Source: Alphaproteobacteria bacterium (GTDB lineage: Bacteria; Pseudomonadota; Alphaproteobacteria; Micropepsales; Micropepsaceae). Taken from it: a stretch of DNA of 64,000 nucleotides. The position numbers and the translations under genes are program-made. The DNA lies in contig CANIHD010000005.1 in the NCBI GenBank assembly GCA_947467345.1, forward strand, positions 62,001 to 126,000, written 5' to 3'. The notes under the pieces are model-generated. The model worked only from the letters and a program-made list of their open reading frames with translations. It had not been told where the DNA came from and did no database searches. Below are positions 10,428 to 54,578 of this stretch, one piece after another; the stretch's first letter is position 1; each line of letters opens with the position of its first letter.

Positions 10428-13166
<2,739 letters not shown>

Positions 13167-13169
13167 GCA

Positions 13170-15481: not shown

Positions 15482-15505
15482 CGGCGTCGCCCGAGCCGGT
15501 TCCCG

Positions 15506-18884: not shown

Positions 18885-18910
18885 GGCGCGCGCGCGTTCC
18901 GTCGATGATT

Positions 18911-21678: not shown

Positions 21679-21906
21679 GGAGCATTTTCCGAGTATTTCG
21701 GCTGTTTTTCGCCCTCATAAAACTGCAACCAGTTGGCTGTATCCTACGGCCGGCATTCGGAAATTCTTTTACCTGGGGTTGCGCCTGAGGGCCGCTTGAA
21801 GCTATCAAGCCGCAAATAGACGTGTTGTTTGTGTAATTAGTTTCATACCACATTTATTATACTATGAATTGTGCATCTATCCGTCGATTGAAAGTGGCTT
21901 GGTCTG
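21679..21906. other. manC-cysD intergenic region
   Basis: 228 bases without a convincing gene. The last 80 bases are AT-rich and include a TATACT -10-like hexamer at 21858-21863, some 44 bases before the cysD start, but no good -35 at normal spacing. Confidence 0.35.
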
Positions 21907-24716: not shown

Positions 24717-24837
24717 AACGTTTTACTTCCACAATATTTACGGTGGCCCAGGCAAATGCTCGCAAGCTGAGGGCGGGGTGTGCGACTTTGGGCTACGTTA
24801 ACCTCCCCTGTAATAGGTTTGCGTACGGAGGAATTTC

Positions 24838-25818
24838 ATGACTGTTTTGGTTACAGGCGGCACCGAATATATCGGCAGCCACATGGTCCACACGCTTCTG
24901 GATCGTGGTCGCAAAGTCGTGGTGCTCGACTATTTGTCCACGGGCGTCCGCGCCAATGTCGCGCAGGATGCGTCCTTTGTGCTTGGCAGCGTCGGTGACA
25001 CAGCGCTCATGAAGCGCGTGCTCGCGGAACATGCGGTTGAGACGGTGATTCATTTTTCCGGGTCGGTCATCGTCCCCGAATCCGTCGAAAACCCCATTCT
25101 CTATTACAGCAACAATACGTTCGCTTCGCTGCATCTGGTCAATGCGTTTATCCATAGCGGCGTAAAGAAATTCATTTTCTCGTCCACTGCTGCGGTCTAC
25201 GGCATTACGGAACGCAATCCGGTGTCGGAAAAAGACGAGACAAACCCGATCAATCCCTACGGCCGCTCGAAGCTGATGACGGAGTGGCTGCTGGATGATG
25301 CGGCCCACGCGCATGATTTCCGCTTTGTTGCGCTGCGCTATTTCAATGTCGCCGGCGCTGACCCGAAAGGGCGCACCGGGCAATCGACGCCGCGCGCGAC
25401 CCACCTCATCAAGCGGGCCTGTCAGGCGGCGCTGGGGCGTGTTCCGCAGTTGGAAATATTCGGCACCGATTTTCCGACCAGAGACGGCACGGGCATTCGC
25501 GATTATATTCACGTCAGCGATCTCGCCGAAGTGCATGCACTGGCGCTGGAATATCTGGGCGACGGTGGCGAATCCCAAATTCTCAATTGCGGCTATGGCC
25601 GCGGATTCTCGGTACGTGAAGTCATTGACGTGGTGTCGAAGGTTTCACAACGGCCTTTGCCGACACGCGAAGCGCCGCGCCGCGCCGGAGATCCGCCGGT
25701 AATCGTCGCCGATTGCTCGCGTGTAACGTCGGAATTCGGTTGGCAGCCGCGCCACAACCATCTCGAAGAGATCGTCTCTACGGCCTATGCCTGGGAGCGG
25801 CGCCTTAACGCCGCCTAA
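24838..25818 (+). CDS. galE: UDP-glucose 4-epimerase, altered NAD motif
   Basis: Interconverts UDP-glucose and UDP-galactose (326 aa, normal length). Catalytic Ser in FSSTAAVYG and Tyr/Lys in NPYGRSKLMTEW are intact, as are LRYFNVAGAD and GTGIRDYIHVSDL. The NAD glycine motif, normally TGGAGYIGSH, reads TGGTEYIGSH: the central Gly is Glu at residue 10 (GAA at 24865-24867). This would place a charged side chain at the pyrophosphate loop and could impair NAD binding. The frame is otherwise clean. It follows the broken cysNC gene. Confidence 0.92.
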   Translation: MTVLVTGGTEYIGSHMVHTLLDRGRKVVVLDYLSTGVRANVAQDASFVLGSVGDTALMKRVLAEHAVETVIHFSGSVIVPESVENPILYYSNNTFASLHLVNAFIHSGVKKFIFSSTAAVYGITERNPVSEKDETNPINPYGRSKLMTEWLLDDAAHAHDFRFVALRYFNVAGADPKGRTGQSTPRATHLIKRACQAALGRVPQLEIFGTDFPTRDGTGIRDYIHVSDLAEVHALALEYLGDGGESQILNCGYGRGFSVREVIDVVSKVSQRPLPTREAPRRAGDPPVIVADCSRVTSEFGWQPRHNHLEEIVSTAYAWERRLNAA

Positions 25819-25839
25819 GGCGGCGTCAGTTCAGCAAAA

Positions 25840-26724
25840 CTATTTCGGCAGGCTCGCAAGAATCTTCCGCAATGCCGGCGCGATGTCCGGGCGTTGCAAT
25901 CCGAGCGCGATATTGGCGTGCAGGAAGCCCACCTTGTCGCCGCAATCGTAGCGTGCGCATTCCGTCTTCACCGCATGGAAGGGCTCATGCCCCAAGAGCT
26001 TTGCCATGCCGTCGGTGAGTTGAATTTCGTTACCGGCGCCGCGCTCCATGCGTTCCAATTGCGCGAAGATGGACGGCGGAAGAATATAACGCCCGATCAC
26101 GCATAGCGTGGACGGCGCATTTTCCGGTGCAGGTTTCTCGACAATGCCCTTAACTTCCACGGTATTGCCGTGCCACTTTCCGGGATCGACCACGCCGTAG
26201 CGACGTGTTTCTTCGCGTGGCTTTTCTTCGACCGCAACGATGATGCCGCCGCCGACTTCGTTATAGGCTTTAATCATCTGCGATAGGGCGCCCGGCGTGC
26301 CGACCATAAGATCGTCCGGCAAGATGACCGCGAAGGGTTCGTCGCTCACGAAATGGCGCGCACACCACACCGCATGGCCAAGGCCAAGCGGGCGCTGCTG
26401 ACGGGTGAAGCTGACCGACCCGTTGGGGGGCAGGCTTTCCAGAAGCCCTGCCAGGGCCTTCAGCTTGCCGCTGCCTTCAAGCTGCGATTCCAGCTCATAG
26501 GCGTGATCGAAATGGTCCGAGATCACGTGTTTCCCCCGGCCTGTCACGAAAATGAATTGTTCGATCCCCGCTTCGCGTGCTTCCTCGACGGCATATTGAA
26601 TGACAGGCTTGTCTACGACGGGCAGCATTTCCTTCGGGATGGCTTTGGTGGCCGGAAGGAAGCGGGTGCCGAGACCGGCGACCGGGAAAACAGCTTTGCG
26701 AACAGGGCGGGGGGTGCTTGTCAT
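25840..26724 (-). CDS. galU: UTP-glucose-1-phosphate uridylyltransferase
   Basis: Makes UDP-glucose from UTP and glucose-1-phosphate (294 aa). The pyrophosphorylase signature KAVFPVAGLGTRFLPATKAIPKEM is N-terminal, then VDKPVIQYAVEEA, FVTGRGKHVISDHFD, AVILPDDLM and GIVEKPAPENAPS. It is convergent with galE and supplies UDP-glucose to galE and ugd in the same block. No anomaly seen. Confidence 0.97.
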   Translation of the reverse strand: MTSTPRPVRKAVFPVAGLGTRFLPATKAIPKEMLPVVDKPVIQYAVEEAREAGIEQFIFVTGRGKHVISDHFDHAYELESQLEGSGKLKALAGLLESLPPNGSVSFTRQQRPLGLGHAVWCARHFVSDEPFAVILPDDLMVGTPGALSQMIKAYNEVGGGIIVAVEEKPREETRRYGVVDPGKWHGNTVEVKGIVEKPAPENAPSTLCVIGRYILPPSIFAQLERMERGAGNEIQLTDGMAKLLGHEPFHAVKTECARYDCGDKVGFLHANIALGLQRPDIAPALRKILASLPK

Positions 26725-26917
26725 GTTGAAACCAATCAGGCTAAAGCGCTGACATCCTTAAAGGCTTTTCCGGGACAAGGAAATTGGAAAGCACCGCCTT
26801 AGGAATTCATGGCAATTTCTCTGCTATCTGTACGGTGGCTTAGGCCTGAGGCCAGCTTTAAATTCAAGCCTGGTTAAAGCCTAGCTTGGTTAAGACCAAG
26901 TCTGTTCAAGGGTTGTC
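26725..26917. promoter_or_regulatory. divergent galU/epimerase control region with direct repeats
   Basis: 193-base divergent promoter region. Two related 14-mers with the shared core TGGTTAA lie 16 bases apart (26868-26881 and 26884-26897, 11 of 14 identical) just before the epimerase start, and an 11-base palindrome GGCCTGAGGCC lies at about 26843. These could be an operator; no regulator can be named. Confidence 0.35.
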
Positions 26918-27892
26918 ATGCGAATTTTACTTACCGGCGCTGCAGGATTCATCGGCTCTCATACAGCCCTCGCTCTCATGGCGCGGGGGCATGACATCGT
27001 TGGGCTGGATTCGATCAACTCGTATTACGATCCAGCGTTGAAGCATGCGCGCCTGGCGCGGCTTTCGGGGAACTCTGCATTTCGTTTCGCGCATGTCGAT
27101 ATTGCCGATGCCGAAGCGTTGTCGAGCGCGGTGCGCGGTGAGCATTTCGACGCTATCCTACATTTGGCGGCGCAAGCCGGCGTGCGTTATGCGCTGCAAG
27201 ATCCTGCGTCCTACACGCGTTCCAATTTGGTCGGGCATCAGAATATTTTGGAACTCGCGCGCCACATGAAGGGGCTTGGCCATCTCGTCTATGCGTCGTC
27301 GAGTTCCGTCTATGGCAACGACACAGCGGCGCCCTATTCCGAAGATGCGCGCGCTGACCGTCCGGTTTCGTACTACGGCGCGACCAAGAGGGCTGGGGAA
27401 CTTTTGTCTTACTCGTACGCCGGATTGTTCGGGCTTAAGCAGACGGGCCTGCGCTTCTTCACGGTCTACGGAACCTGGGGCCGTCCGGATATGGCCTACT
27501 GGCTATTCACGGATGCGATCTTGCGCGGACGCGCTTTGCCGCTGTTCGGCGGCGGTAAGTTGCGGCGCGATTTCACCTGGATCGACGACATCGTCGCCGG
27601 CATCGTTGCCGTGCTGGAAACGCCTTACGCCGCCACCGAAGGCGCGCCGCATCGCGTCTACAATCTGGGCAACAGCCATCCGGAAGAAGCCATCACGCTG
27701 GTCCGCGCGATTGAAGAGGCAACCGGCAAACAGGCGATCATTCATTATACCGACGGCCCGCCAGGAGATGTGATCGAGACCTATGCCGACGTCACGAAGG
27801 CGTCACGCGATTTCGGTTACGCGCCAACAACGAGCTTGGCCGAAGGCATTCCACGCTTCGTTTCGTGGTTCCGCGAATATCATAAGGTCTAA
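26918..27892 (+). CDS. NAD-dependent epimerase, UDP-glucuronate 4-epimerase-like
   Basis: Extended short-chain dehydrogenase/epimerase (324 aa) resembling LspL/CapI UDP-glucuronate 4-epimerases, which give UDP-galacturonate. NAD motif LLTGAAGFIGSHTA, HLAAQAGVRYAL, catalytic Ser in YASSSSVYG, Tyr/Lys in SYYGATKRAGE, and the family-specific LRFFTVYGTWGRPDMA, RRDFTWIDDIV. Its stop is two bases from the convergent ugd, whose product UDP-glucuronate would be its substrate. A related 4-epimerase specificity is possible. Confidence 0.88.
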   Translation: MRILLTGAAGFIGSHTALALMARGHDIVGLDSINSYYDPALKHARLARLSGNSAFRFAHVDIADAEALSSAVRGEHFDAILHLAAQAGVRYALQDPASYTRSNLVGHQNILELARHMKGLGHLVYASSSSVYGNDTAAPYSEDARADRPVSYYGATKRAGELLSYSYAGLFGLKQTGLRFFTVYGTWGRPDMAYWLFTDAILRGRALPLFGGGKLRRDFTWIDDIVAGIVAVLETPYAATEGAPHRVYNLGNSHPEEAITLVRAIEEATGKQAIIHYTDGPPGDVIETYADVTKASRDFGYAPTTSLAEGIPRFVSWFREYHKV

Positions 27893-27894
27893 GC

Positions 27895-29208
27895 CTATTT
27901 CGGCTTTACCGTCGCGCGTCCCACGCTGACATAGGTGTAACCGGCGTCGGCCATCAGTTGCGGCCGGTAGATGTTTCGCAAATCCACCATCAGCGGGCGC
28001 TTCAGAAGTTTCTTGGTCTTCACAAGATCAAGTGCGCGGAACTCATTCCACTCAGTCAGGATCACAACGCCGTCGGCGCCGTTCAGCGCCGTGTAGGCGT
28101 CGGGGCAATGCGTAACGTCCAAGAGCTTCTCGGCTTCCTTCTTGCCCTCAGGATCGTAAGCGTGGATGTCGGCACCATGTTCTTTCAACCACGGAACGAT
28201 GACGAGGCTGGGCGCGTCACGCATGTCGTCGGTATTCGGTTTGAAGGTCAGGCCAAGCACAGCAATGCGCTTGCCCTTCACGCCGCCAAAGGCCGCGTCG
28301 ATCTTTTCGGCCATAGCAATTTTGCGCCGGTCATTGGCCTGCACGACGGCGGCCACAATAGCTGTCGGCGCGTTGACCTCCTCAGCGGTGCGCAGCAGCG
28401 CGAGCGTGTCCTTCGGAAAACACGAACCGCCATAGCCCGGTCCCGCATTCAGAAATTTCTTGCCGATGCGGCCGTCCAAGCCGATGCCGCGTGCGACATC
28501 CTGAACATTTGCGCCGACGCGCTCGCAAATATCGGCCATCTCGTTGATGAACATGATCTTGGTCGCGAGAAACGCGTTGCCGGCATATTTGATCAGTTCC
28601 GAACTTTCGCGCGACGTGAACACGATAGGCGTCTCGTTCAAGAACAGCGGGCGATAGAGCTCGCGCAATACGTTGGCAGCGCGTTCGCTTGTCGTGCCGC
28701 ACACAATCCGGTCGGGATGGCGGAAATCTTCAATCGCCGAACCCTCGCGCAGGAATTCCGGATTCGATGCGACGTCGAAATCGGCATCGGGACGAACGGA
28801 GCGGATCGTGTCTTCGACCTTCTGGCCGGTGCCCACCGGCACGGTCGATTTGTTGACGACGACGGTGTAGCCGACAAGCGCCTCGGCAATTTCTTTGGCG
28901 GCGCCGAACATATAGGCAAGGTCGGCGTGGCCGTCACCGCGACGCGACGGTGTTCCGACCGCGATGAACACGGCGTCGGCTTCCGGAACCGCGCTTTTCA
29001 AATCCGTGGTGAAGGAAAGACGGCCGGCCTTCACATTGGCGGCCACAACTTCATCCAGCCCCGGTTCGAAGATCGGAATCTTGCCGGCCTTCAGAGCCTC
29101 GATCTTGCTGGCGTCCTTATCGACGCAAACAACATGATGGCCGAACTCAGAGAAGCAGGCACCGGAAACAAGGCCCACATAACCAGTTCCGATCATGGCA
29201 ACGCGCAT
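27895..29208 (-). CDS. ugd: UDP-glucose 6-dehydrogenase
   Basis: Oxidises UDP-glucose twice to UDP-glucuronate with NAD (437 aa). N-terminal Rossmann motif AMIGTGYVGLVSGACFSEFG, FIAVGTPSRRGDG, STVPVGTG. Catalytic Cys lies in GPGYGGSCFPKDT, and the C-terminal domain has LTFKPNTDDMRDAPS. It links galU (substrate supply) to the epimerase gene it faces. Full length, no defect. Confidence 0.97.
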   Translation of the reverse strand: MRVAMIGTGYVGLVSGACFSEFGHHVVCVDKDASKIEALKAGKIPIFEPGLDEVVAANVKAGRLSFTTDLKSAVPEADAVFIAVGTPSRRGDGHADLAYMFGAAKEIAEALVGYTVVVNKSTVPVGTGQKVEDTIRSVRPDADFDVASNPEFLREGSAIEDFRHPDRIVCGTTSERAANVLRELYRPLFLNETPIVFTSRESSELIKYAGNAFLATKIMFINEMADICERVGANVQDVARGIGLDGRIGKKFLNAGPGYGGSCFPKDTLALLRTAEEVNAPTAIVAAVVQANDRRKIAMAEKIDAAFGGVKGKRIAVLGLTFKPNTDDMRDAPSLVIVPWLKEHGADIHAYDPEGKKEAEKLLDVTHCPDAYTALNGADGVVILTEWNEFRALDLVKTKKLLKRPLMVDLRNIYRPQLMADAGYTYVSVGRATVKPK

Positions 29209-42120: not shown

Positions 42121-42534
42121 CTATTTCACCGTCTGGAGATAGGCGATCAGATCGGCCTCTTCCTTCGGATCGGAGAAGCCCGGAAAGCCCATCTTCGTGC
42201 CGGGGACCATCTTCGCCGGAGCGGCGAGGTAGGTCTTCAATGTGTCGGCGGACCACGTCACGTTCGCCTTCATCATTGCGGCAGAATAGGTGTAGCCGGT
42301 CGCGGTCGCGGATTTGCGGCCAATAACTCCGAACAGGTTCGGACCCACTTTGTGTGCGCCGCCCTTGGTTTCCGTATGGCAGATGCCGCAATTGTCGGCG
42401 AAGACTGTCTTACCGTTGGCAGCATTGCCTGCTGCAGCCGCCGCTTGAGCGGGCGCGCTGAACAATACGGCCGCCGTTACCAGACCGGCGACAGCGCCGG
42501 TTGCCTTCATGAATCCAGCCACGTTTTTCCTCAT
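42121..42534 (-). CDS. periplasmic class I cytochrome c (c2-like)
   Basis: Soluble electron carrier (137 aa) exported by Sec: signal peptide with LVTAAVLFSAPAQA, cleavage near AQA-AA. One heme site CGICH (about residues 49-53), the typical HKVGPNLFGVIGRK, and the axial Met in GTKMGFPGF; C-terminal helix EEADLIAYLQTVK. It could accept or donate electrons for the three heme-containing paralogues beyond rnr, but only proximity supports that. Confidence 0.92.
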   Translation of the reverse strand: MRKNVAGFMKATGAVAGLVTAAVLFSAPAQAAAAAGNAANGKTVFADNCGICHTETKGGAHKVGPNLFGVIGRKSATATGYTYSAAMMKANVTWSADTLKTYLAAPAKMVPGTKMGFPGFSDPKEEADLIAYLQTVK

Positions 42535-42629: not shown

Positions 42630-44897
42630 TTAGCGCCTTGGTTTGCGCCCGCCTTTGGGGCGGGGCTTAGAGCCCGGTTTAATGCCGGGCTTAGCGCTGG
42701 GTTTGGGAGCAGGGCGGCCTCGGTTCTGCCGGCCGGCAGTCTCGCTCCCCTCGGCAAGGTCGAATCGGAGGCCTCCGGTAAGGGGGGCTGCTTCCGCGAG
42801 ACGGACCTGGACGTGCTCGCCCAGCCGATAGGTTTTCCCCGTTCGCTGGCCCACCAAAGCGTGTCTTTTCTCGTCGTGGCGGTAGAAATCCGTGCCTAAA
42901 GCACGCATCGGAAGAAGTCCGTCGGCGCCGGTGTCGGCGAGGCGCAGAAAGAGGCCGAACCTTGTGACGCCCGTAATGCGCGCATTGAACTCGGCGCCGA
43001 TTCTTTCTTCCATAAAGGCGGCGATGTAGCGGTCGGCGGAGTCGCGTTCGGCTGCCATGGCGCGCCGTTCCGTCACCGAAATGTGTTCCGCCGTGTCGGA
43101 CAGCCGCGCCATTTCGTCGCCGGTCAGCCCGTCGTCGCCGAAGCGCAATCCGCGAATCAATGCGCGATGCACGACGAGGTCGGCATAGCGGCGAATCGGC
43201 GAGGTGAAATGCGCGTAATGCTCGAGGTTGAGTCCGAAATGGCCGAGATTCTCCGGCGCGTAAACCGCTTGTGCCTGCGTGCGCAGCACCACGTCGTTCA
43301 TGATGTCCTGATGCGGCGTGCCCTTGCTGCGCGCCAGGATCTGGTTGAAGAGCGCCGGCTTCATCACCTGCCCCTTGGCGAACGGAATGCCGATGGTGCG
43401 CAAATAATCTGAGAAGGCGACGACCTTCTCTTGGCTCGGCTCTTCATGGATGCGGTAGATGAGCGGCGAACGGCCTTTCTCCAGCGCTTCGGCAGCCGCG
43501 ACATTGGCCTGGATCATGAACTCTTCGATGAGGCGCATGGATTCCAGGCGGTCGCGAAAGGCGATGGATTTCACTTTGCCGTCTTCGCCCAAAATGATCC
43601 GCCGCTCGGGCAAATCGAGATCGAGCGGCGAGCGCTTGTCGCGCGCTTTCGCGGCAACTTGATAGGCATCCCATAGTGGTTGCAAAACGGTCTTCTGCAA
43701 CGGTGCGGCCTTCGCGTCCGGCTTGCCATCGAATGCAGCTTGCGCTTGCGCATAGGTCAGTTTCGCCGCCGAGCGCATGAGCCCGCGCATGAATTCATGG
43801 CGGCGTTTATTGCCATCGGCATCAAACACCAAACGCACGGCAAGGCAGGCGCGGTCTTCTCCTTCGCGCAACGAACAGAGATCCGCCGACAATGCCTCCG
43901 GCAACATCGGCACCACGCGATCCGGGAAATAGGCGGAGTTGCCGCGCTTGCGTGCTTCTTTGTCGAGCGACGATCCGGTTCGCACATAATGCGCAACGTC
44001 TGCGATGGCGACGATGACGACATAACCGCCTGGATTGCTGCGGTCGGTGTCGGGCGCGGCCCACACCGCGTCGTCGTGATCGCGCGCGTCTTCGGGATCG
44101 ATGGTGACAAGCGGGAATTGCCGTAAATCCGTGCGGCCGTCCAAACTCACCGGTTGTGCGCGTTCCGCTTCCGCAATCGCGTCGCGCGGAAATTCAGTTG
44201 GAATGCCATGGGCGTGAATCGCGATGAGGCTGACAGCTTTGGGCTCATTCATGGAGCCGAGCTGTTCGATGATGCGCGCGCGTGGACTTCCCGAAGCGCG
44301 ACCGGCCAAAGGTTCGACCAACACCAATTGCCCGCTTTCGGGGATGTTGCGCTCGCGTGAGTCCAGAATGAATCCGTAACGCGATTTCTTATCGATCGGA
44401 TCGATACGCACGATATCGCCTTCATGCTTCACCACGCCAAGCACGCGTTCAACGCCGGCGCCGAGGCGCTTGATAATGCGCCCCTCATATCCGTTGTTGG
44501 TGCGGGAGATGCGGGCGAGGATGCGTTCGCCGCGCCCAATCGCCGGCCCGGCATCTTCCTTGCCCGGCACAATGACAACGGAAGGCGCTTCGTCCTCACT
44601 CGTCCAATGCGCGGGCTTGCCGATGGGTTCGCCGTCCACATCTTCGCCGACGATTTCCAGCACCGTCACTTCGGGCAACGCGCCGGGCGGCAGGAAGGAT
44701 TTTTTCTTGCCGCGCTCCAGCGCGCCGTCATCGGCGAGTTCCTTGAGGATGCGCTTCAGCTGCTGACGCTCGTCACCTCTGACGCCCAGCGCGCGCGCCA
44801 GATCGCGCTTGGTATCGCCCGGATGCGCGGCGAGATGCGCCAAGATCGCCTCTTTCGAGAGCGCCGGCGCGAGAGTGTTCTTGGGACGTTTCGGCAC
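42630..44897 (-). CDS. rnr: ribonuclease R
   Basis: 3'-5' exoribonuclease that degrades structured RNA (755 aa). N-terminal winged-helix segment (LSKEAILAHLAAHPGDTKRDL), cold-shock/OB domains, and the RNB catalytic core with acidic cluster TIDPEDARDHDDAVW and the segment SPIRRYADLVVHRAL. A C-terminal S1 domain (VTRFGLFLRLADTGADGLLPM) ends in a Lys/Pro/Gly-rich tail. 38 bases separate it from the upstream cytochrome paralogue and no terminator is seen between them, so it may be cotranscribed. Confidence 0.96.
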   Translation of the reverse strand: MPKRPKNTLAPALSKEAILAHLAAHPGDTKRDLARALGVRGDERQQLKRILKELADDGALERGKKKSFLPPGALPEVTVLEIVGEDVDGEPIGKPAHWTSEDEAPSVVIVPGKEDAGPAIGRGERILARISRTNNGYEGRIIKRLGAGVERVLGVVKHEGDIVRIDPIDKKSRYGFILDSRERNIPESGQLVLVEPLAGRASGSPRARIIEQLGSMNEPKAVSLIAIHAHGIPTEFPRDAIAEAERAQPVSLDGRTDLRQFPLVTIDPEDARDHDDAVWAAPDTDRSNPGGYVVIVAIADVAHYVRTGSSLDKEARKRGNSAYFPDRVVPMLPEALSADLCSLREGEDRACLAVRLVFDADGNKRRHEFMRGLMRSAAKLTYAQAQAAFDGKPDAKAAPLQKTVLQPLWDAYQVAAKARDKRSPLDLDLPERRIILGEDGKVKSIAFRDRLESMRLIEEFMIQANVAAAEALEKGRSPLIYRIHEEPSQEKVVAFSDYLRTIGIPFAKGQVMKPALFNQILARSKGTPHQDIMNDVVLRTQAQAVYAPENLGHFGLNLEHYAHFTSPIRRYADLVVHRALIRGLRFGDDGLTGDEMARLSDTAEHISVTERRAMAAERDSADRYIAAFMEERIGAEFNARITGVTRFGLFLRLADTGADGLLPMRALGTDFYRHDEKRHALVGQRTGKTYRLGEHVQVRLAEAAPLTGGLRFDLAEGSETAGRQNRGRPAPKPSAKPGIKPGSKPRPKGGRKPRR

Positions 44898-44935: not shown

Positions 44936-47104
44936 TCAGTGTGCCAGCGGATCGGGGCGCAGCTGGAAGTGGACGACCTTGCTGGTGGTACCTTTCCCGC
45001 CCTCGAAATGCCAGACCGGTCTGGCGGAGAAGCCAGACCACAGCCCGCGTCCTTTCCAGCCGGCGTTGGGATCGTCGATACGGCCATCCAGCGCCTTGGC
45101 GTAGAAGCCTATTGGGTAGGGCACGCGCAAGGTCACGAAGTTTCCGTCTTTAAGCGCGAACAGCGCATCGGAATTGTTCCCAGTATTGATCGGGGTGTCG
45201 GCGCCGAGGCCAAACGTATCGAAGCGATCGACATAGGTGAAATAGCCGCCTTCGTGACTCCCCGTGTCCGACACGCCTTCGAATTGCGGGCCGGGGAAGG
45301 GATGCAATGTCCAACCTTCGGGGCAATGGGCGCCCGTAGCATTCGCGCCGTTGAGCGGTCCCGTGCATTTGCGGCGATCGAAACTCGCCAGATGCCCGCT
45401 GATCATCGACACCCACGCGACGCCATCGCCATCAACATCCAGCCCGCGCGGCGAATAGCCTGGCATGTTTTCATTCTGCCACGGCAATTCGTAATACTCG
45501 GTCAGTGAGGTTGAGGGCGGGTTCGCACCAGGCGCGAGCCGCGAAATGCTGCCTGGATAGCCGATGTTAGAACCCCATATCGCGCCATCTGGCGCCACAG
45601 TTAAGGCATAGAAGCCTGCATTGACGCGGCGGTCTTTGGCGCGATCGGCAGGCGCATCAGGCTCGACAAACGCGTCGCGCACGCCATTGCCGTTCGTATC
45701 GATCACATGCGCGATCCAGCCTTGCGAGGTTTGTTCGTTGCCGGTGGAGTCGAACGCGTTGGTGTCGAACCATCCCGTCGTCTCGGTCGGCTGCGTGCCG
45801 CCGCTGAACCACAACACGGCCTTGTCGTCGAATGCCATGTGATGCGTTGGAAAGCAGGTGTCGATCAGCGTGAATTTTTTGGTCGTCAAATCGTAGAACG
45901 ACAATTGCCGTGACGATTCCGCAATCGGAAAGGCCTTCGCGGATGGATGTTCGGAGCCCGCTTTGCACCACGCCGGGTTCGCATCATTGCGGATACGCGT
46001 GGTTATCCAGACGCGTCCCTTTTGGTCGAACATGGCATGGCGAGGATTGCCCTGGCTGTCCCAGATGCGTTCGTCGCCCCAATAGGGCGAGGGTGCGAAC
46101 ATCGGCAGATCGCGCGTCGTCGTTGTGTCGGCATCGCGCACCGGAAGCACGATCTCGCTTTTGGTGTTCGTTTTGGGATCAAGGATCGGAATAATATTGG
46201 AGCTGACTTCGGGCGCGCCGAAAATCGGGCCATAGGCGTTGTAATTGGGATTGCGGCGATCGGCGGAGCCTTGATCGTCGATGTAATGGGTGGGCCGCGA
46301 CCAATCCCATAGAGTAATAACAATATTGCGTTCCACGCCTTGCGGACGTTCTGGCTTCTGCTTGGGAAGCTCGCCATTGGCGATGCGGTCGGTCCAACCG
46401 GCTAACGATTTGATCCACCGTTCGGCACCCAAAGTATTCGCCGCGCGCATCATATTCGCGCTGGCTTGGCCCGATTGCAGACGGCGCGTCCACGCATCCT
46501 CGGAACTGGCGAATTTTCCAAGCGAAGGTGGAAAGGTGCGCGTCGCCTTGTTGCCGATCTGATGGCACGACATGCAGCCGTCCATCTTCACGAAATCCAA
46601 ATAGGCGCCTTGCGTCTTTATGTCTTCGGCAATGCCGTTGCCGCCTTCGCCCGTTCCGGTGCCGGGGAATTCGCTTTCCGCCGGAATTTTCAGCATCGAG
46701 TACCAATATCCTGCCGGATAATACTCGGCTGCCGCCGCATCGTCGGGCGCTGGAACTGCGGCGAGATTAAGCGTCACGCCTGGTTTGGTTTCGCGCTTCG
46801 GTGAGTCGATCAGCCCGTAACCGCGTACCCAGATTGTGTAATTTGCGGGGGGCAGATCGGGAATGAGATAGTGGCCCTCATCATCGGTCACCACGATCTT
46901 GGCGAGCTTAGTCGGAAGGTCGTTGGTCTCGGCGATAACCCACACGCCGGCCTCGGGACCATTCGGACCGGAGACAATTCCTGCAATGTCATCGTCATCA
47001 TGCGCGATTGTTTCGCTTTCGCCGAGGAGGCCATTTTGCACAGCGAAATACGCGAGAGCGGCGACAGCAGCCGTACCCAAAAGAATGCCAGCAATACGGT
47101 TCAT
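44936..47104 (-). CDS. membrane-anchored heme/propeller protein, paralogue A
   Basis: 722 aa, unknown function. An N-terminal helix (about 4-27, GILLGTAAVAALAYFAV) is an uncleaved anchor; unlike the two paralogues it has no lipobox. Residues about 38-120 form a carboxypeptidase-regulatory-like beta-sandwich (GPEAGVWVIAETNDLPTK...GHYLIPDLPPANYTIWVRGYG). One heme c site CMSCH at 177-181. The C-terminal 480 residues show propeller-like strands (GRVWITTRIR, GAIWGSNIGYPG, GVAWVSMISGH), conserved Cys in NPAWCKAG, IDTCF and RRKC...HCPEGW, and a Ca-site-like DTNGNGVRD. Presumably periplasmic. Third gene of the tandem array in transcription order. Confidence 0.8.
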   Translation of the reverse strand: MNRIAGILLGTAAVAALAYFAVQNGLLGESETIAHDDDDIAGIVSGPNGPEAGVWVIAETNDLPTKLAKIVVTDDEGHYLIPDLPPANYTIWVRGYGLIDSPKRETKPGVTLNLAAVPAPDDAAAAEYYPAGYWYSMLKIPAESEFPGTGTGEGGNGIAEDIKTQGAYLDFVKMDGCMSCHQIGNKATRTFPPSLGKFASSEDAWTRRLQSGQASANMMRAANTLGAERWIKSLAGWTDRIANGELPKQKPERPQGVERNIVITLWDWSRPTHYIDDQGSADRRNPNYNAYGPIFGAPEVSSNIIPILDPKTNTKSEIVLPVRDADTTTTRDLPMFAPSPYWGDERIWDSQGNPRHAMFDQKGRVWITTRIRNDANPAWCKAGSEHPSAKAFPIAESSRQLSFYDLTTKKFTLIDTCFPTHHMAFDDKAVLWFSGGTQPTETTGWFDTNAFDSTGNEQTSQGWIAHVIDTNGNGVRDAFVEPDAPADRAKDRRVNAGFYALTVAPDGAIWGSNIGYPGSISRLAPGANPPSTSLTEYYELPWQNENMPGYSPRGLDVDGDGVAWVSMISGHLASFDRRKCTGPLNGANATGAHCPEGWTLHPFPGPQFEGVSDTGSHEGGYFTYVDRFDTFGLGADTPINTGNNSDALFALKDGNFVTLRVPYPIGFYAKALDGRIDDPNAGWKGRGLWSGFSARPVWHFEGGKGTTSKVVHFQLRPDPLAH

Positions 47105-47157
47105 GATGGCGGCTCCCGTCGCGCTCTATGTCTCAGCGCTTTGCATCATGCTAGCCG

Positions 47158-47192
47158 AAAAAAAGCGCGCGCAGACTCTGTCTACGCGCGCT
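47158..47192 (-). terminator. terminator between paralogues B and A
   Basis: On the minus strand a 13-bp GC-rich stem (AGCGCGCGTAGAC / GTCTGCGCGCGCT, one G-U) with a 3-base loop is followed by T7. It lies 21 bases past the paralogue B stop and should uncouple A from B. Confidence 0.85.
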
Positions 47193-47212
47193 CGTAAAGG
47201 ATTGATCTCTAA

Positions 47213-49378
47213 TCAGTGCGCTAACGGATCAGGCCGGACTTGGAATTTCACGGCCTTCGGCTTGGTGCCTTTGCCGCCTTCCAGATGATACGGCGTGCGA
47301 TTGCCGAAGGTCGACCAGACGCCGCGCCCTTTCCAGCCGCCATTGGGATCGTCGATGCGCCCATCCGCGTTCTTGGCGAAGAAGCCCATCGGATAGGGAA
47401 CGCGGAAGGTCACAAAGTTCCCGTCCTTCAGCGCGAACAGCGCGTCGGATGCGTTGCCCATGATGAACGGCGTGGCCTCGCCAAGCCCCGATGTGTTGTG
47501 TTGATCGACCCAGGTGTAATAGGGCGCCTCGGCACTGCCCGAGCCTGGCACGCCTTCGAATTGCGGACCGGGCAACGGATACATGGTCCAGCCTTCAGGA
47601 CAATGTTTGCCGGTGGCGTTGGGCCCGTTCAACGGCGCCGTGCATTTGCGGCGGTCGAAGCTGGCCATATGACCGGATTGCAGCGAAGCCCAGACGACAC
47701 CGTCTTTGTCGACATCCATGCCGCGGGGTGAATGCCCACCGGTGGTTTCATAGGGGACTTCGAACACTTCCGAGATCGCGGATTCCGGCGGGTTGTCGCC
47801 GAGCACAGTACGCGTGATGAAGCCCGGGAAGCCGAGCGTGTTGCCCCATACAGCGCCGTCGGCGCTTTGACCAATGCCGTAGGGATAGGCGTTGATACGC
47901 TTGTCCTTGGTGGGATCGACCGGCACGTCGGGCTCCACATAGCCTTCGTCGCGCACGCCGTTGCCATTGGTGTCGAGAATGAACGGCGTCCAGCCCTGTG
48001 AAAGTTTCTCGTCCTTCGTCTCGTCATAGGTGGCGACATCGAGCCATGCGAGCACCGGGCCACCGACCGGAAATCCGGTGCTGAGCCAGAGCGGGTTTTT
48101 CGGGCCATACCCGAACACTAGATGATGCGTGCCGAAACACGTGTCGATGGTTTCCCATTTGCCGGTGGTCTTGTCGTACATGTCGAGCTGACGCGGCGAA
48201 GCGTTGAGCGGAAACAGTTTCGCCGAAGGATGATCAGATCCCGCCTTACACCACGCCGGATTGTCCATGTTGCGAATGCGCGCCGTTTCCCACATGCGCG
48301 ATTTCTGATCGTACATGGGATTGTGCATATTGGTCTGGCTGTCCCAGATAATCTCATCGCCGTAATATGGCGACGGCGCGAACATCGGGTCGTCTTTCGT
48401 CGACACTGTATTCGGATCGCGCACCGGTGCCTTGATCGTGCTGGCCGTGTGCGTGACCGGATCGAGCATCGGAATTTCATCGGTCGACAATTCCGGTGAC
48501 CCGAAGATCGGCCCATTGGGATTCAATGTCGGATCGCGCCGGTCGGTCGAAATTTCGTCATGCAGATAGGTCTTCTCGCTCGCCCAATCCCACAGCGTGA
48601 TGACCATGTTGCGCTCGACGCCTTGCGGACGTTCGGGTTTGGCGGACGGAAGTTCGCCGCCATTGATGCGATCCGTCCAACCAGCGAATTCCTTCAGCGC
48701 GCGCTGCGCACCGATCGCGCCGATATTGCGCACCATATTGCCGGACGCTTGCCCGGATTGAATCCGGCGCGTCCACGCGTCGACCGTTGTTTCGAACGTG
48801 CCAAGCTCGGGATGCAAAACGCGCGTCGCTTCATTGCCGAGCTGATGGCAGGAATAGCAGCCTTCCGTTTTCAGCATGCGGATCCATTGCGCCTGGTTCT
48901 GCATGGCTTCGGTGATGCCGTTGCCCGCATCGCCGGTGCCCGGAAACTCATTGACGCCGGGCACCTTCAACATCGCCCACCAATAGAGCGCCGGATAATA
49001 ATGCGCGGCCGCTTTTTCATCGGGTGCGGCGACGGCGGTGAGATTGAGATTGCCGCCCGGTTTCGCCTGCATCTTCTCGGAATCGACGAGGCCATATCCG
49101 CGCACCCACACCGAATAATTGGCGGCGGGCAGATCCGGAATGACGTAACGGCCTTGATCGTCGGTGACGACGATCTTCGCGTATTTGGTCGGAAGATCGG
49201 TTGTCTCAGCGATAACCCAGACGCCGGCTTCCGGACCGTTCGCGCCGGTCACCACGCCGCCGAGATCGTCGGCGTCGACGGCGATTTCGGGCGCCGCTTG
49301 ATTGCAGCCGGCTAGCGCGATCGCAGCCAGTGCGATGGCTGCACCCGTCGTCAACAATGTCGATTTACTCGATCTCAT
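47213..49378 (-). CDS. lipoprotein heme/propeller protein, paralogue B
   Basis: 721 aa from the start preceded by GGGAGAGATGAA; an upstream frame to 49474 adds an unlikely 32 residues across a terminator. Signal with lipobox LAGC (Cys25) predicts a lipoprotein. The same order as A: beta-sandwich GPEAGVWVIAETTDLPTK, heme site CYSCH at 174-178, linker PERPQGVERNMVITLWDW, propeller region with FAPSPYYGDEIIWDSQ, NPAWCKAGSDHPSAK, IDTCFGTHH, DTNGNGVRD, RRKC...KHCPEGW, end RPDPLAH. Shares long identical blocks with A and C, so the trio arose by duplication. Confidence 0.8.
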   Translation of the reverse strand: MRSSKSTLLTTGAAIALAAIALAGCNQAAPEIAVDADDLGGVVTGANGPEAGVWVIAETTDLPTKYAKIVVTDDQGRYVIPDLPAANYSVWVRGYGLVDSEKMQAKPGGNLNLTAVAAPDEKAAAHYYPALYWWAMLKVPGVNEFPGTGDAGNGITEAMQNQAQWIRMLKTEGCYSCHQLGNEATRVLHPELGTFETTVDAWTRRIQSGQASGNMVRNIGAIGAQRALKEFAGWTDRINGGELPSAKPERPQGVERNMVITLWDWASEKTYLHDEISTDRRDPTLNPNGPIFGSPELSTDEIPMLDPVTHTASTIKAPVRDPNTVSTKDDPMFAPSPYYGDEIIWDSQTNMHNPMYDQKSRMWETARIRNMDNPAWCKAGSDHPSAKLFPLNASPRQLDMYDKTTGKWETIDTCFGTHHLVFGYGPKNPLWLSTGFPVGGPVLAWLDVATYDETKDEKLSQGWTPFILDTNGNGVRDEGYVEPDVPVDPTKDKRINAYPYGIGQSADGAVWGNTLGFPGFITRTVLGDNPPESAISEVFEVPYETTGGHSPRGMDVDKDGVVWASLQSGHMASFDRRKCTAPLNGPNATGKHCPEGWTMYPLPGPQFEGVPGSGSAEAPYYTWVDQHNTSGLGEATPFIMGNASDALFALKDGNFVTFRVPYPMGFFAKNADGRIDDPNGGWKGRGVWSTFGNRTPYHLEGGKGTKPKAVKFQVRPDPLAH

Positions 49379-49474
49379 TTCATCTCTCCCGCCGGGCATT
49401 CGCCCCATGTTTTGCCGCGCCCCCAATAGACGAGGCATTTGCCGCAATAATACCGTCCCTTGGGACAAAAGCAC

Positions 49475-49509
49475 AAAAAAATGGGGAGAGACTTTCGCCT
49501 CTCCCCATT
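49475..49509 (-). terminator. terminator between paralogues C and B
   Basis: On the minus strand a perfect 11-bp stem (AATGGGGAGAG / CTCTCCCCATT) with an 8-base loop is followed by a T-run. It lies 22 bases past the stop of paralogue C. Confidence 0.88.
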
Positions 49510-49531
49510 CGGGTACTCAAATTTTCGTCGC

Positions 49532-51727
49532 TTATTTGTCGAGCGGCGAGCTACGCACTTGGAAGTGATAGACCTTTGGCTTCGTGCCTTTGCCGGTCTC
49601 CATGTGCGCCATTGTTCGCTGGCCGGACGAAACCCAAAGGCCACGGCCTTTCCAGCCGGCATTCGGATCGTCGATGCGGCCTTCCAGACCTTTGGCGAAG
49701 AAGCCGGTCGGGTAGGGGACGTGCATCGTAACGACCTTGCCGTCCACAAGGGCGAGGAGCGACTCGGACGCATTGCCGATGATCACCGGCGTATTGTCGC
49801 CAAGGTTCGATGTGTTGAACTGATCGACCCACGCGTAATAGCTGGTGTCGGCGCTGCCCGGTGCATCCTTCATGTTCTTGAAGTTCGGTCCCGGCATTTC
49901 ATAGAACGCCCAGCCTTCCGGGCAATGATCGCCGGTTGCATTCGGGCCGTTCAGCGGGGCCTTACACTTGCGCACGTCGAAGCTGGCAATGTGCCCGCTG
50001 CCGACGCCCGCCCACATCACGCCGTTGCGGTCGATATCGGCGCCACGAATGGAGTGGCCCTTCACCGGCGAGTTGGGGTCGTTGTACGGCATGCGATAGA
50101 ACTGCGTCAGCGTCGTCTCCGGCGGATGATCGCCAGGGATCACGCGCATGAAGCCGCTCGGGAAGGGCACAACGGCGCCCCAGATCGAACCGTCGACCGG
50201 GCTGATCGAAACTGAGTAATTGCCCAGCTCCATGATCTTGTCCTTCGTCGGATCGACCGGATCATTCGGGCCAACCGGATTCGGGTCCCGCTTGCCATTG
50301 CCGTTGGTGTCGACAACGAAGGTTGTCCAACCTTGGCTCGCGGCTTCGTCGCCGGTCTCTTCGTATTTCTTGGTGTCGAACCAGCCGATGGTGAGACCAG
50401 CCGCGTTCACGCCGCCGCGCGAGAACCAGAGGGTGTTCTTACCGTCTTCGGTGAACGCAAGGTGATGCGTGTCGAAGCAGGTGCGGATCAATTTCCATTC
50501 GCCGGTGGCCGGATCGAACATCGACAAATGACGACCGGAGCGTTCGATCGGCGTCAGCTTCGCGGACGGATGATCGGAGCCCGCTTTGCAGAATGCCGGA
50601 TTGTCCGCAGGTCCAATGCGCGAGGCAAACCAAACGCGGCCGCGCTCGTCCATCATGTGGTTGTGCGTCACCGTCTGGCTGTCCCAAATCGGCTGGTCGC
50701 CCCAGATTGTGGAGGGCGCGAAGATCGGATCATCCTTGGTGGAAGGCGTGGCGGGATCGCGAACCGGGATTTTGATTTCGGTCACTGTATTCGCCACGGG
50801 ATCGAGAACGGGAATGAGGTCCGTCGAAAGTTCCGGCGCGCCATAGAGTTTGCCGTATCCATTCACGGTCGGCGTGCGACGGTCCGTCGACATCGCGTCG
50901 TGCAGATAGAATTGCGGCTGCGACCAATCCCAAGTCGTGGTCACAACATTACGCTCGATGCCTTCGGGCCGCGTCGGCTTCTCGAACGGCAATTCGCCGG
51001 CTTTGATGCGGTCGGTCCAATCGGCGTATTCTTCCATCGCGCGCTTCGGACCCATGCGTGTCGCGCTGTCGACCATGCTGGTCGCGGCCTGACCCGACAT
51101 GATGCGGCGTGTCCAAGCGTCAACCGCATTGTCGAATTCGCCGAGTTCCGGCTGGATCTCGCGCACATGCTCGCTGCCGAATTGATGGCAGGAGTAACAG
51201 CCCGTCGACTTTACGTAGTGAATCCATTGGCCGCGGGTCTTCACGTCGGTGGAAATGCCGTTGCCTTCCTGACCGGTGCCGGGAAAATTACTGTCGTCGG
51301 GAATGTTGAGAAGCGAGAACCAATAGAGCGACGGATAAATTTTTGCAGCGGCAGCTTCGTCGGGCGCGACAGTCGGCGCGAGATTGAGATGCACACCCGG
51401 CTTCGCCGTGACGCGCGGTGAATCGACCAAACCGTAGCCGCGTGCGAACAGCTGATAATTCGCTGCCGGAAGATCGGGCATCACATAGCGGCCCTGATCG
51501 TCGGTGACGACGCTGCGGACGAATTTGGTTCCCAGATCGTCGGTTTCGGCGACGACCCACACGCCGGCCTCAGGGCCGTTCGCGCTAGTCACCACACCGG
51601 CAATATCGTCGTTGTCGATTGCGATGTCGGCGCCGGGTGCTTCTTGCTGGCAGCCCGCCAGTCCGAATGCGCCGAGGGCCAGAATGCCGCTTGCCGCGGC
51701 TAAAAATGCCGCCTTCCGATTCGCCAT
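49532..51727 (-). CDS. lipoprotein heme/propeller protein, paralogue C
   Basis: 731 aa, start backed by GGAGGAA. Lipobox LAGC with Cys26. The same architecture: beta-sandwich (GPEAGVWVVAETDDLGTK...YVMPDLPAANYQLFARGYG), heme site CYSCH at 177-181, WTRRIMSGQA and WTDRIKAGELP, RPEGIERNVVTTTWDW, propeller strands, NPAFCKAGSDHPSAK, IRTCFDTHH, DTNGNGKRD, RKC...DHCPEGW. Most diverged of the three (EHVRE in place of EATR after the heme). First of the array, 58 bases after topA with no clear terminator between them. Confidence 0.8.
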   Translation of the reverse strand: MANRKAAFLAAASGILALGAFGLAGCQQEAPGADIAIDNDDIAGVVTSANGPEAGVWVVAETDDLGTKFVRSVVTDDQGRYVMPDLPAANYQLFARGYGLVDSPRVTAKPGVHLNLAPTVAPDEAAAAKIYPSLYWFSLLNIPDDSNFPGTGQEGNGISTDVKTRGQWIHYVKSTGCYSCHQFGSEHVREIQPELGEFDNAVDAWTRRIMSGQAATSMVDSATRMGPKRAMEEYADWTDRIKAGELPFEKPTRPEGIERNVVTTTWDWSQPQFYLHDAMSTDRRTPTVNGYGKLYGAPELSTDLIPVLDPVANTVTEIKIPVRDPATPSTKDDPIFAPSTIWGDQPIWDSQTVTHNHMMDERGRVWFASRIGPADNPAFCKAGSDHPSAKLTPIERSGRHLSMFDPATGEWKLIRTCFDTHHLAFTEDGKNTLWFSRGGVNAAGLTIGWFDTKKYEETGDEAASQGWTTFVVDTNGNGKRDPNPVGPNDPVDPTKDKIMELGNYSVSISPVDGSIWGAVVPFPSGFMRVIPGDHPPETTLTQFYRMPYNDPNSPVKGHSIRGADIDRNGVMWAGVGSGHIASFDVRKCKAPLNGPNATGDHCPEGWAFYEMPGPNFKNMKDAPGSADTSYYAWVDQFNTSNLGDNTPVIIGNASESLLALVDGKVVTMHVPYPTGFFAKGLEGRIDDPNAGWKGRGLWVSSGQRTMAHMETGKGTKPKVYHFQVRSSPLDK

Positions 51728-51785: not shown

Positions 51786-54428
51786 TTAGGCCTTCGCAAC
51801 GGCCTTCTTGGGAGCAGCCCGCTTTTTGGCGGGTGTTTTGGCCTTCACTTTTGCGGGCTTGGCTCCGGCGGCCGGAGCGGCCTTTGCAACTGCCGCAGTC
51901 TTCCGCGCTGGCTTCTTGCCTTTGACGGGGCCCTTGGCTGCACGCGCCGCGAGCAAGGCGATCGCTTCATCTAAATTTATTGCAATGGGATCGCTATCCT
52001 TCGGCAACGTGGCATTCACCTTGCCGTCCGTGACGTACGGCCCGTAACGGCCCTTCATCACCCGGATCACGGCGTCGCTATCGGGCGCTTTGCCTAGCTC
52101 TTTCAAGGGCTCGCCGCCGCGCATACGGGGGCCCTTGGCCTTGCGCTCGGCCAACAGGCTTACGCCACGGTTGATGCCGACCGTGAAAACTTCGTCCGGT
52201 CCATCGAGCGACGCATAGCTGCCGTCGTGAGACACGTAAGGTCCAAAGCGCCCGAAGCCCGCAACAATCGGCTTGCCCGTTTCGGGGTGAAGGCCGATTT
52301 CGCGTGGAAGGGAAAGCAGCCTGAGCGCTTGCTCGAGATCGATGGTCTCAGGTGTCGTAAATCCCTTGGGAATGCTCGCGCGCTGCGGCTTCTCGCCTTC
52401 GCCGAGCTGAACATAGGGTCCGAAGCGTCCCACCTTAAGAGCGATATCCTGTCCAGTCTCGGGATCCTGTCCGAGCACACGCGGATCGGCGGCACCGGCT
52501 TCATCACCGCGGCCCAATTGGCGCGTGTGGCGGCATTCCGGATAGTTCGAACAGCCGATGAAGGCGCCGAAGCGGCCGAGCTTCAGACTGAGACGGCCAT
52601 TGCCGCAGGTCGGACATACGCGCGGATCGCCGCCGTCTTCGCGCGCCGGAAACATATGCGGGCCAAGGATCGCATCCAATGCGTCGATCACGTTGGCGAA
52701 TTTTAGCTCTTTGGTCTCTTCCGCCGCGGCGTGGAAATGTTTCCAGAAATCGCGCAGCAGATCTTTCCACGCCATCGTGCCGGCGGAGACTTCGTCGAGT
52801 TTCTCTTCCAGATCGGCAGTGAAATCATATTCGACATAACGTTTGAAGAAACTGGTCAAAAAGGCGGTGACGACACGCCCTTTGGATTCGGGAATGAAAC
52901 GGTTCCGATCCATCCGCACATAGGCACGGTCGCGTAAGACCGAAAGAATGCTGGCGTAGGTAGACGGCCGGCCGATGCCTAGTTCTTCCAGTTTTTTGAC
53001 GAGGCTGGCTTCCGAATAACGCGGCGGCGGTTCGGTGGAATGTTGCTCCGGGCGAACCTCGTTTAACGTCAGGCCGTCGCCCTGCACAAGACGCGGCAAA
53101 TTGCGATCTTCGCTGTCACCGTCGTCGTCACGACCTTCTTGATACAGCGCCAGAAAGCCGTTGAAGAGCGTAACCGTGCCGACGGCGCGTAAGCGCGTAT
53201 TGCCGTCACGCGAAACGACTTCAACAGTTGTGCGCTCCTGCTCGGCGCTTTCGATCTGCGACGCGAGTGCGCGCTTCCAGATCAGCTCGTAAAGACGCGC
53301 CTGATCGGAATCGAGATGTTTCGCCACCATTTCCGGCGTGCGCGAAAAACTCGTCGGGCGGATGGCTTCATGCGCTTCCTGCGCATTCTTCGCCTTCGAG
53401 GAATAGGCGCGCGGCACGCCGGGCACATATTCCTTGCCGAGACGGTCGCCGATGACGTGTCTCGCTTCTGCGATCGCTTCGCCGGCCATGGAGACGCCGT
53501 CGGTTCGCATATAGGTGATAAGACCGGTGGTTTCGCCGCCGATGGTCACGCCTTCATAGAGGCCTTGCGCAATCTTCATCGTGCGCGCCGCCGCGAATCC
53601 AAGTTTGCGCGCTGCTTCCTGCTGCAGAGTCGAGGTGATGAATGGTGGCGAGGGATGGCGTTTGACCGGCTTCTTTTCCACTTCACCAACGGCGAAATGT
53701 CCGGCGCGAATGGCAGCGACCGCGCGCGTGGCACTGGCTTCATCGCCGAGCGACAGCTTGGAAAGTTTCTTGCCTTCGAAATGGGTCAGGCTGGTGGTGA
53801 AATTTCCGCTCGCTGCGGCAAAGTCCGCATCGACGGTCCAATATTCCTGCGCCTTGAACGCTTCGATTTCGAGCTCACGCTCGCAGATGAGGCGAAGCGC
53901 GACCGATTGCACGCGGCCTGCCGAACGGGCGCCGGGCAATTTGCGCCACAGCACCGGCGACAGCGTGAAGCCGACCAGATAGTCGAGCGCGCGCCGCGCG
54001 AGATAGGCGTCAACCAGCTCGACATTGATGTCGCGCGGATGGGCCATGCCGTCGAGCACGGCCTTCTGGGTGATAGCGTTGAAAACGACGCGTTGAACTT
54101 TGGTTCCGGTGAGGACGCGGCGCTGTTTCAGCGTCTCCAGCAAATGCCAGGAAATGGCTTCGCCTTCGCGGTCCGGGTCGGTGGCGAGGATCAGGCGGTC
54201 GGCGTTCTTCACGGCGTCGGCGATCTCCTTCAGGCGCTTTTGCGCCTTCGGGTCGATCTCCCAGATCATGGCGAAGTCTTCGTCGGGCTTCACCGAACCC
54301 TCTTTGGAGGGCAGATCGCGGATATGACCGAAGCTGGCCAGGACGACGTAGTCCTTGCCCAGATATTTGTTGATCGTCTTCGCCTTAGCAGGAGACTCGA
54401 CGACAACGACGTTGGACGGTTCGGCCAT
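51786..54428 (-). CDS. topA: DNA topoisomerase I
   Basis: Type IA topoisomerase that relaxes negative supercoils (880 aa from MAEPSNVVVVESPAKAKTI). Toprim acid cluster LATDPDREGEAISWHLL, catalytic Tyr in GLITYMRTDGVSM, and one C4 zinc module CPTCGNGRLSLKLGRF...CSNYPEC followed by repeated KVGRFGPYV/GFGRFGPYV modules. The tail is Lys/Ala/Pro-rich, as often in this clade. A longer frame to 54515 adds an unlikely Cys/Pro-rich N terminus. dprA lies 150 bases upstream. Confidence 0.97.
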   Translation of the reverse strand: MAEPSNVVVVESPAKAKTINKYLGKDYVVLASFGHIRDLPSKEGSVKPDEDFAMIWEIDPKAQKRLKEIADAVKNADRLILATDPDREGEAISWHLLETLKQRRVLTGTKVQRVVFNAITQKAVLDGMAHPRDINVELVDAYLARRALDYLVGFTLSPVLWRKLPGARSAGRVQSVALRLICERELEIEAFKAQEYWTVDADFAAASGNFTTSLTHFEGKKLSKLSLGDEASATRAVAAIRAGHFAVGEVEKKPVKRHPSPPFITSTLQQEAARKLGFAAARTMKIAQGLYEGVTIGGETTGLITYMRTDGVSMAGEAIAEARHVIGDRLGKEYVPGVPRAYSSKAKNAQEAHEAIRPTSFSRTPEMVAKHLDSDQARLYELIWKRALASQIESAEQERTTVEVVSRDGNTRLRAVGTVTLFNGFLALYQEGRDDDGDSEDRNLPRLVQGDGLTLNEVRPEQHSTEPPPRYSEASLVKKLEELGIGRPSTYASILSVLRDRAYVRMDRNRFIPESKGRVVTAFLTSFFKRYVEYDFTADLEEKLDEVSAGTMAWKDLLRDFWKHFHAAAEETKELKFANVIDALDAILGPHMFPAREDGGDPRVCPTCGNGRLSLKLGRFGAFIGCSNYPECRHTRQLGRGDEAGAADPRVLGQDPETGQDIALKVGRFGPYVQLGEGEKPQRASIPKGFTTPETIDLEQALRLLSLPREIGLHPETGKPIVAGFGRFGPYVSHDGSYASLDGPDEVFTVGINRGVSLLAERKAKGPRMRGGEPLKELGKAPDSDAVIRVMKGRYGPYVTDGKVNATLPKDSDPIAINLDEAIALLAARAAKGPVKGKKPARKTAAVAKAAPAAGAKPAKVKAKTPAKKRAAPKKAVAKA

Positions 54429-54578
54429 GTATGGATTCTTGTGCTCGCAGGGGCGGCAAGGGCGCGGACACTGATTGAAGCACGGGAGCGGTGTCAACCA
54501 TGACAACACAACCATAGATTGTGGAATGTAGCTTCTGACCGGGTCGGCGATCTACAGAACATTAATGTCTTCAGTGGC

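Follow-up and report, generated by a model that had tools for sequence, protein, structure and literature searches.

Tandem paralogues joining a putative haem c domain to a predicted Vgb-like propeller, inserted between topA and rnr in an alphaproteobacterium

Background

Class I haem c is located beside a propeller active site in cytochrome cd1 nitrite reductase and in the quinohaemoprotein alcohol dehydrogenases. Seven-bladed propellers with histidine-bound metals are represented by carotenoid oxygenases and nitrous oxide reductase. Virginiamycin B lyase (Vgb, PF24684) is likewise a seven-bladed propeller, with the catalytic residues H228, E268, H270 and E284 (numbering checked against the Vgb sequence). 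The active site of Vgb is situated in blades 6 and 7 (PMC8916777). Blades of Vgb type carry a motif in which one residue stands about 11 positions ahead of the tryptophan; in blades 6 and 7 of Vgb this place is taken by the catalytic H228 and H270. In CylK, a Vgb-like propeller has been recruited to new chemistry within a fusion protein (PMC8916777).

Public databases also hold proteins that NCBI calls "carboxypeptidase-like regulatory domain-containing protein". This generic name derives from the N-terminal domain alone and assigns no function. Three proteins of the same family are encoded in the window studied here, a stretch of 64,000 nucleotides from the genome of an alphaproteobacterium (family Micropepsaceae). 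A sequence-only reading of the window had seen three clearly homologous proteins in a row between topA and rnr, and had suggested an extracytoplasmic redox or lyase family amplified by duplication, possibly with different substrates. Here we describe the architecture, relatives and origin of these proteins and propose a function for them.

Results

The array consists of three genes situated side by side on the minus strand: P0003 (first gene, 49532..51727), P0002 (second, 47213..49378) and P0001 (third, 44936..47104). It is flanked upstream by topA (51786..54515) and downstream by rnr (42630..44897), both on the minus strand. Each product has about 720 amino acids and consists of an anchor, a CarboxypepD_reg-type domain, a putative haem domain (motif CYSCH in P0003 and P0002, CMSCH in P0001) and a propeller, in this order. 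Over nearly the whole length, pairwise identity is 61% for P0001/P0002, 57% for P0002/P0003 and 53% for P0001/P0003, which is far beyond chance; the three are homologous, as had been read from the sequence alone. The open frame of P0002 begins with an upstream GTG at 49474, but its start is most likely the ATG at 49378, behind GGGAGAG. Hairpins resembling intrinsic terminators, each with 14 pairs and a T tail, follow P0003 (49479..49510, minus strand) and P0002 (47163..47193, minus strand). They are the longest stems in a terminator scan and fall exactly within the intergenic gaps, while the total of terminator-like sites in the scan is within about one standard deviation of shuffles, with no excess. 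The position of the two hairpins suggests that the three genes are probably transcribed as separate units.

Three other features of the window are worth recording. Immediately past rnr and in its orientation (42121-42534), the window encodes a small c550-like monohaem cytochrome, a possible electron acceptor; one is also found near rnr in genome G002, a relative of the window's genome. Positions 17931-29208 hold, as judged by eye, a group of nucleotide-sugar genes (GDP-mannose, UDP-sugar epimerases, dehydrogenases) that probably serves surface polysaccharide. Positions 4494-5609 code for a secreted protein of 371 amino acids, propeller-like by eye and free of a haem motif.

The membrane anchors, read earlier as one helix and two lipoboxes, are indeed of these kinds: P0001 has one hydrophobic helix and no lipobox, and P0002 and P0003 carry the lipobox LAGC. 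In E. coli, the residue after the lipid cysteine decides to which membrane a lipoprotein is sorted. Since this residue is Asn or Gln in P0002 and P0003, not Asp, the E. coli rule points to the outer membrane for both. The following segment, GPEAGVWVIAET, had been taken for a beta-sandwich domain and belongs to a CarboxypepD_reg-type domain by Pfam, the three proteins matching at E 6e-8 to 6e-5. P0003 alone (33.3 bits) exceeds the PF13620 cut-off of 32.3 bits, and P0001 and P0002 stay below it. The domain in P0003 covers residues 40-117 (51377..51610, minus strand; PF13620 E 6.1e-8), and its strands are present in the structural model.

The middle domain of P0003, residues 118-255 (50963..51376, minus strand), resembles a divergent class I cytochrome c. 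The single CXXCH that had been noted in each protein is placed at 51185..51199 in P0003 (C177-H181), at 48845..48859 in P0002 and at 46562..46576 in P0001, all on the minus strand. C177, C180, H181 and M218 (P0003 numbering is used throughout) are invariant in 92/92 aligned family sequences. The layout of class I cytochromes c is present, with CXXCH, a Met distal to it and a helix at the C-terminal end, and helices surround CXXCH and M218 both in the P0003 model and in a model of the isolated domain. The segment RRIQSGQAGxxM...FADWTDRI resembles the c551 stretch that contains the axial Met and the final helix; His181 and Met218 would be the haem ligands. In this domain, no Pfam family except Cytochrome_CBB3 and Cytochrom_C is matched by two or more members; the matches are weak (29/92 and 13/92 members, best E about 1e-3). 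Among solved chains, cytochromes c551/c552 are the sole cytochromes found, also weakly (E 0.6-0.7). A fold search with the isolated domain model (pLDDT 83.5) gave no match, nor did profile alignment to five cytochromes c (hhalign, 3.8%), which leaves membership of class I likely rather than proven. Cytochrome c assembly genes (PF01578) are present in the window's genome.

The C-terminal part of P0003, residues 256-726 (49550..50962, minus strand), is modelled by AlphaFold2 as a seven-bladed propeller with high confidence (pLDDT 93.6, pTM 0.92), so that the propeller suspected earlier in this half withstands the refutation set for it, absence of the fold from a structure prediction. Its top solved match is Vgb (2z2n; VIA-align Z 23.3, rmsd 2.5 A over 288 residues), and the next propellers follow at Z 19.6. 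Two pairs of cysteines, already recognised by eye, are kept or lost jointly among the 92 aligned sequences: C380/C417 are both present in 89 and both absent in 3, C588/C602 both present in 91 and both absent in 1. Because the cysteines are lost in pairs, they fit two disulfides. The DTNGNGxRD loop pointed out in the same reading is conserved as well; in P0003 it is DTNGNGKRD, residues 473-481 (50285..50311, minus strand), with D473 in 92/92 sequences, N475 in 86 and G478 in 91, and it may be a calcium loop of EF-hand/dockerin type. None of the three proteins matches a PQQ or cytochrome D1 family in Pfam or NCBIfam at E<=1.

At the blade position held in Vgb by the catalytic histidines, blades 1-5 of the family carry, in turn, H276, H355, H421, Y504 and R561, each of them in 90-92/92 sequences. 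Three adjacent blades (1-3) thus bear histidine there, H422 adjoins H421, and the blade motif suggests that all these residues line the propeller channel as a ring. In blades 6 and 7 of the family, histidine is absent from the ring position. When H421 is equated with Vgb H270, no acid is conserved at the counterparts of E268 and E284, residue 419 being mostly S/G and residue 436 S in the 92 sequences.

The ring is altered in one copy of the array. P0001 has Asp at residue 276 (46277..46279, minus strand) and Arg at residue 355 (46040..46042, minus strand) for conserved ring histidines, according to the family alignment. Together with its orthologue L021 in the congener G004, P0001 shows eight common departures from sites conserved at 90%, seven of them at or near the ring (H276D, T281A, H355R, N356H, L423M, Y631F, W633Y), and two ring histidines are lost in both proteins. 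The P0002 and P0003 clades have four departures each from such sites, none of them in the ring. This contrast makes P0001 the copy most likely changed in function, its remodelled channel probably serving a different substrate or role. The suggestion of different substrates among the copies thus gains support for P0001; P0002 and P0003 keep the ring.

By database searches the three proteins are hardly recognised. Pfam finds CarboxypepD_reg alone, NCBIfam gives no match, and sequence comparison with the PDB detects no homologue beyond the N-terminal domain. Neither PF24684 nor the NCBIfam Vgb models match the three at E<=1, nor do they match P0004 (a fourth copy elsewhere in the window's genome) or the relatives L037 and L106. 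The earlier reading could name no characterised member, and we likewise found none in Pfam, NCBIfam, the PDB or the literature searched, which also contained no paper on the combination of CarboxypepD_reg, haem c and propeller.

Shorter relatives of the same domain order place the family. The window's genome contains an intact protein of 556 amino acids with CarboxypepD_reg, CXXCH and Vgb_lyase (L127, G000:C16, 784-2454) and another three-domain relative with an in-frame TAA just before CXXCH (L005 1890-1845; L119, G000:C11), which is either a pseudogene or an assembly error. Relatives in this genome match Pfam Vgb_lyase strongly, with E 1.9e-37 and 1.4e-20. The family profile matches the shorter relatives across all three domains (hhalign 99.6%, E 8e-25), and for this reason the family looks like an enlarged, diverged branch of haem-c Vgb-like proteins. 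His, His, Tyr and Arg recur in the shorter relatives at blades 1, 2, 4 and 5. In a Beijerinckiaceae MAG (L039, 3183-9217), three shorter proteins of CarboxypepD_reg/Vgb type, two with CXXCH and one with CXXXCH, stand in a row near a family member. P0004 is accompanied by a gene of metallo-beta-lactamase fold and by P0005, a cytochrome-Vgb protein of 416 amino acids. A circular permutation relative to Vgb, hinted at by phmmer pieces of P0005, was rejected; the blades are repeats and their register is ambiguous.

At least 552 stretches of sequenced genomes match the family, many of them from Acidobacteriota and Gemmatimonadota. The best 79 of these loci come from Acidobacteriota, Gemmatimonadota, Rokubacteria, Myxococcota, Bacteroidota, Pseudomonadota and others. 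Within the window's phylum, an even sample yields the family in 3/299 genomes, the window's own included. Five of the seven genomes sampled from the window's genus have four to eight copies, and one of the 30 sampled from other genera of its taxonomic family has any copy. A protein on the Microvirga ossetica plasmid NZ_CP016619.1 is a family member with 53% identity over 94% of the query. Phage or plasmid origin was considered and rejected, with no relative in viral contigs and this plasmid match only.

In more than a dozen relatives, topA and rnr adjoin directly, with about 20-130 bp between aligned ends. Since the junction, which the sequence-only reading had proposed to look up in relatives, is empty in most of them, the array is an insertion at this site. 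Besides the window's genome (G000), two congeners have the gap filled: G004 (the lake MAG ErkenSummer_bin-2686) has three copies in topA orientation, in an array (L031) that shares synteny with the window, and G002 has four copies that run against topA. In G004, P0003 has two co-orthologues in the array and P0002 has one, and the orthologue of P0001 is found elsewhere in the genome; copy gain and movement therefore went on after the insertion. Separate insertions for the G000/G004 and G002/G003 arrays, into which a quick tree splits the copies, were rejected: a tree holding the topA-rnr copies together gains 20 log units, the AU test does not reject it (p-AU 0.68), and a single origin, compatible with it, is retained. 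The notion of a family outside the cytoplasm that bears haem, contains a propeller and grew by duplication is supported, with the propeller predicted and the junction empty in most relatives.

Gene neighbourhoods vary. Neither clustering of the neighbours nor Pfam counts over 370 neighbouring genes revealed an obligate operon partner, and the largest neighbour cluster consists of spurious antisense frames. In distant genomes the neighbourhood is heterogeneous; by raw recurrence it includes PQQ dehydrogenases, cytochromes c, gluconolactonase-like proteins and TctC solute receptors. At two loci (L135 and L136), a gene for a cytochrome with two CXXCH motifs comes immediately downstream of the family gene, in the same orientation. 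Members from the genus (L111, L118, L135) repeatedly have DUF6152 genes and genes of a "DxSGxW" protein family in their vicinity, and TctC- or NMT1-like receptors are encountered there too. The topA-rnr array of G002 (L110, G002:C14:38000-57900) encloses, at 12042-15655, genes for an MtrB/PioB porin (PF11854, E 9.5e-103) and an MtrA-like cytochrome with ten CXXCH motifs. MtrB occurs in 2/10 genomes searched, G002 and G003, and is missing from G000 and G004; the MtrA/MtrB pair of G003 is on a contig other than that of the array. MtrB is thus linked to the array in one genome, with no constant linkage of the family to MtrA and MtrB, and since only G003 besides G002 has MtrB among the genomes searched, the association is local.

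Discussion

We tentatively propose, giving it not quite an even chance, that these proteins are envelope-anchored monohaem oxidoreductases, most likely dehydrogenases, whose propeller oxidises a small organic molecule and whose haem c carries the electrons onward. Anchored in the cell envelope, they would face the periplasm or the surface, with the CarboxypepD_reg domain as a stalk between anchor and catalytic part. A small organic substrate would bind in the central channel or on the top face of the Vgb-like propeller and be oxidised at the ring of H276, H355, H421/H422, Y504 and R561, possibly with a metal ion held there. The electron would move to the class I-like haem c of the middle domain (His181/Met218), from there to a soluble cytochrome c and finally to the respiratory chain. 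The copies would have arisen by duplication at the topA-rnr junction, and P0001, with its remodelled channel, would probably have a different substrate or role.

The proposal draws on the Vgb-like propeller, the invariant CXXCH and Met218, the weak cytochrome matches and the PF01578 genes, further on the conserved ring, the three-domain relatives and the P0001 channel changes. The cytochrome gene at L135 and L136, the recurring neighbours in distant genomes and the local MtrAB genes of G002 together favour envelope oxidoreductases that hand electrons to cytochrome c. Against it count the varying neighbours, none of them obligate, the haem domain without fold match and the failed cytochrome profile comparison. 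A ring of this kind might also be conserved for binding a ligand that is not turned over.

An unlikely alternative is that the proteins are non-catalytic lipoproteins for electron transfer or binding, in which haem c is an electron relay and the propeller serves to dock a partner or to bind a ligand, for example beside an MtrAB/PioAB conduit. The porin and decahaem-type genes enclosed in the G002 array agree with docking, as do the many docking platforms among the propellers in the structure-match list, but the distribution of MtrB over the ten genomes and its separate contig in G003 do not. Moreover, the ring is conserved across phyla and changed as a block in one paralogue, and this pattern suggests a small-molecule site.

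Quite improbable is a metal-dependent oxygenase or peroxidase, whose histidine ring would bind Fe or Cu while haem c supplies or removes electrons. H276, H355 and H421 (with H422) on three adjacent blades, conserved in 90-92/92 sequences, would suit such an enzyme, and seven-bladed propellers with histidine-bound metals exist; yet neither carotenoid oxygenases nor nitrous oxide reductase appear among the fold matches listed, and P0001 has dropped two of the histidines with the rest of the protein kept.

More improbable still is a Vgb-type lyase or isomerase (non-redox C-O bond cleavage) with a structural or vestigial haem c: Vgb is the top solved match, relatives in the window's genome match Vgb_lyase and histidines stand at the blade position of the Vgb catalytic His, but these are on other blades than 6 and 7, P0001-P0003 themselves lack the Vgb_lyase match, no acid is conserved at the counterparts of E268 and E284, and the haem motif is invariant.

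Of the two roles contained in the sequence-only reading, redox or lyase, the first is more likely on account of the haem domain, and the second suffers from the acidic residues of Vgb (Mg site) not being conserved. Returning to the oxidoreductase proposal, we regard as doubtful its widest form, in which the family would form a large class, so far overlooked, of propeller oxidoreductases coupled to haem c, with a channel site of several histidines that may bind metal; this class would be spread over several bacterial phyla, amplified and diversified in this genus and, in one lineage, connected to an outer-membrane electron conduit.

The family is already present in public databases under its generic name, and its domain pairing is a Vgb-like propeller fused to haem c. 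With Vgb it shares the seven-bladed propeller and the blade motif, and remote homology by way of the shorter three-domain relatives; it differs in the added CarboxypepD_reg and haem c domains, in about 180 residues of propeller insertions, in the catalytic acids and in a propeller without Pfam match. The shorter unnamed proteins (about 540-620 aa; L127, L039) have the same domain order and a similar ring. They are 100-190 residues shorter, with classical Vgb blades, lack the DTNGNG loop and the disulfide pairs in the alignment, and are likewise uncharacterised. The layout of cytochrome cd1 and quinohaemoprotein alcohol dehydrogenases is analogous, but there is no sequence match and no d1-haem or PQQ family. 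CylK differs by its calcium-binding partner domain, the lack of haem and its alkylation chemistry.

Conclusions

The family is apparently unstudied though widespread: it occupies at least 552 genomic stretches, with several copies per genome in some lineages, under a label taken from its smallest domain. We found no characterised example of a cytochrome paired with a Vgb-like propeller. The three paralogues, one of them with a rebuilt channel, present a natural experiment on change of substrate range. If they are indeed oxidoreductases, a common envelope enzyme would be added to carbon turnover in soil and lakes.
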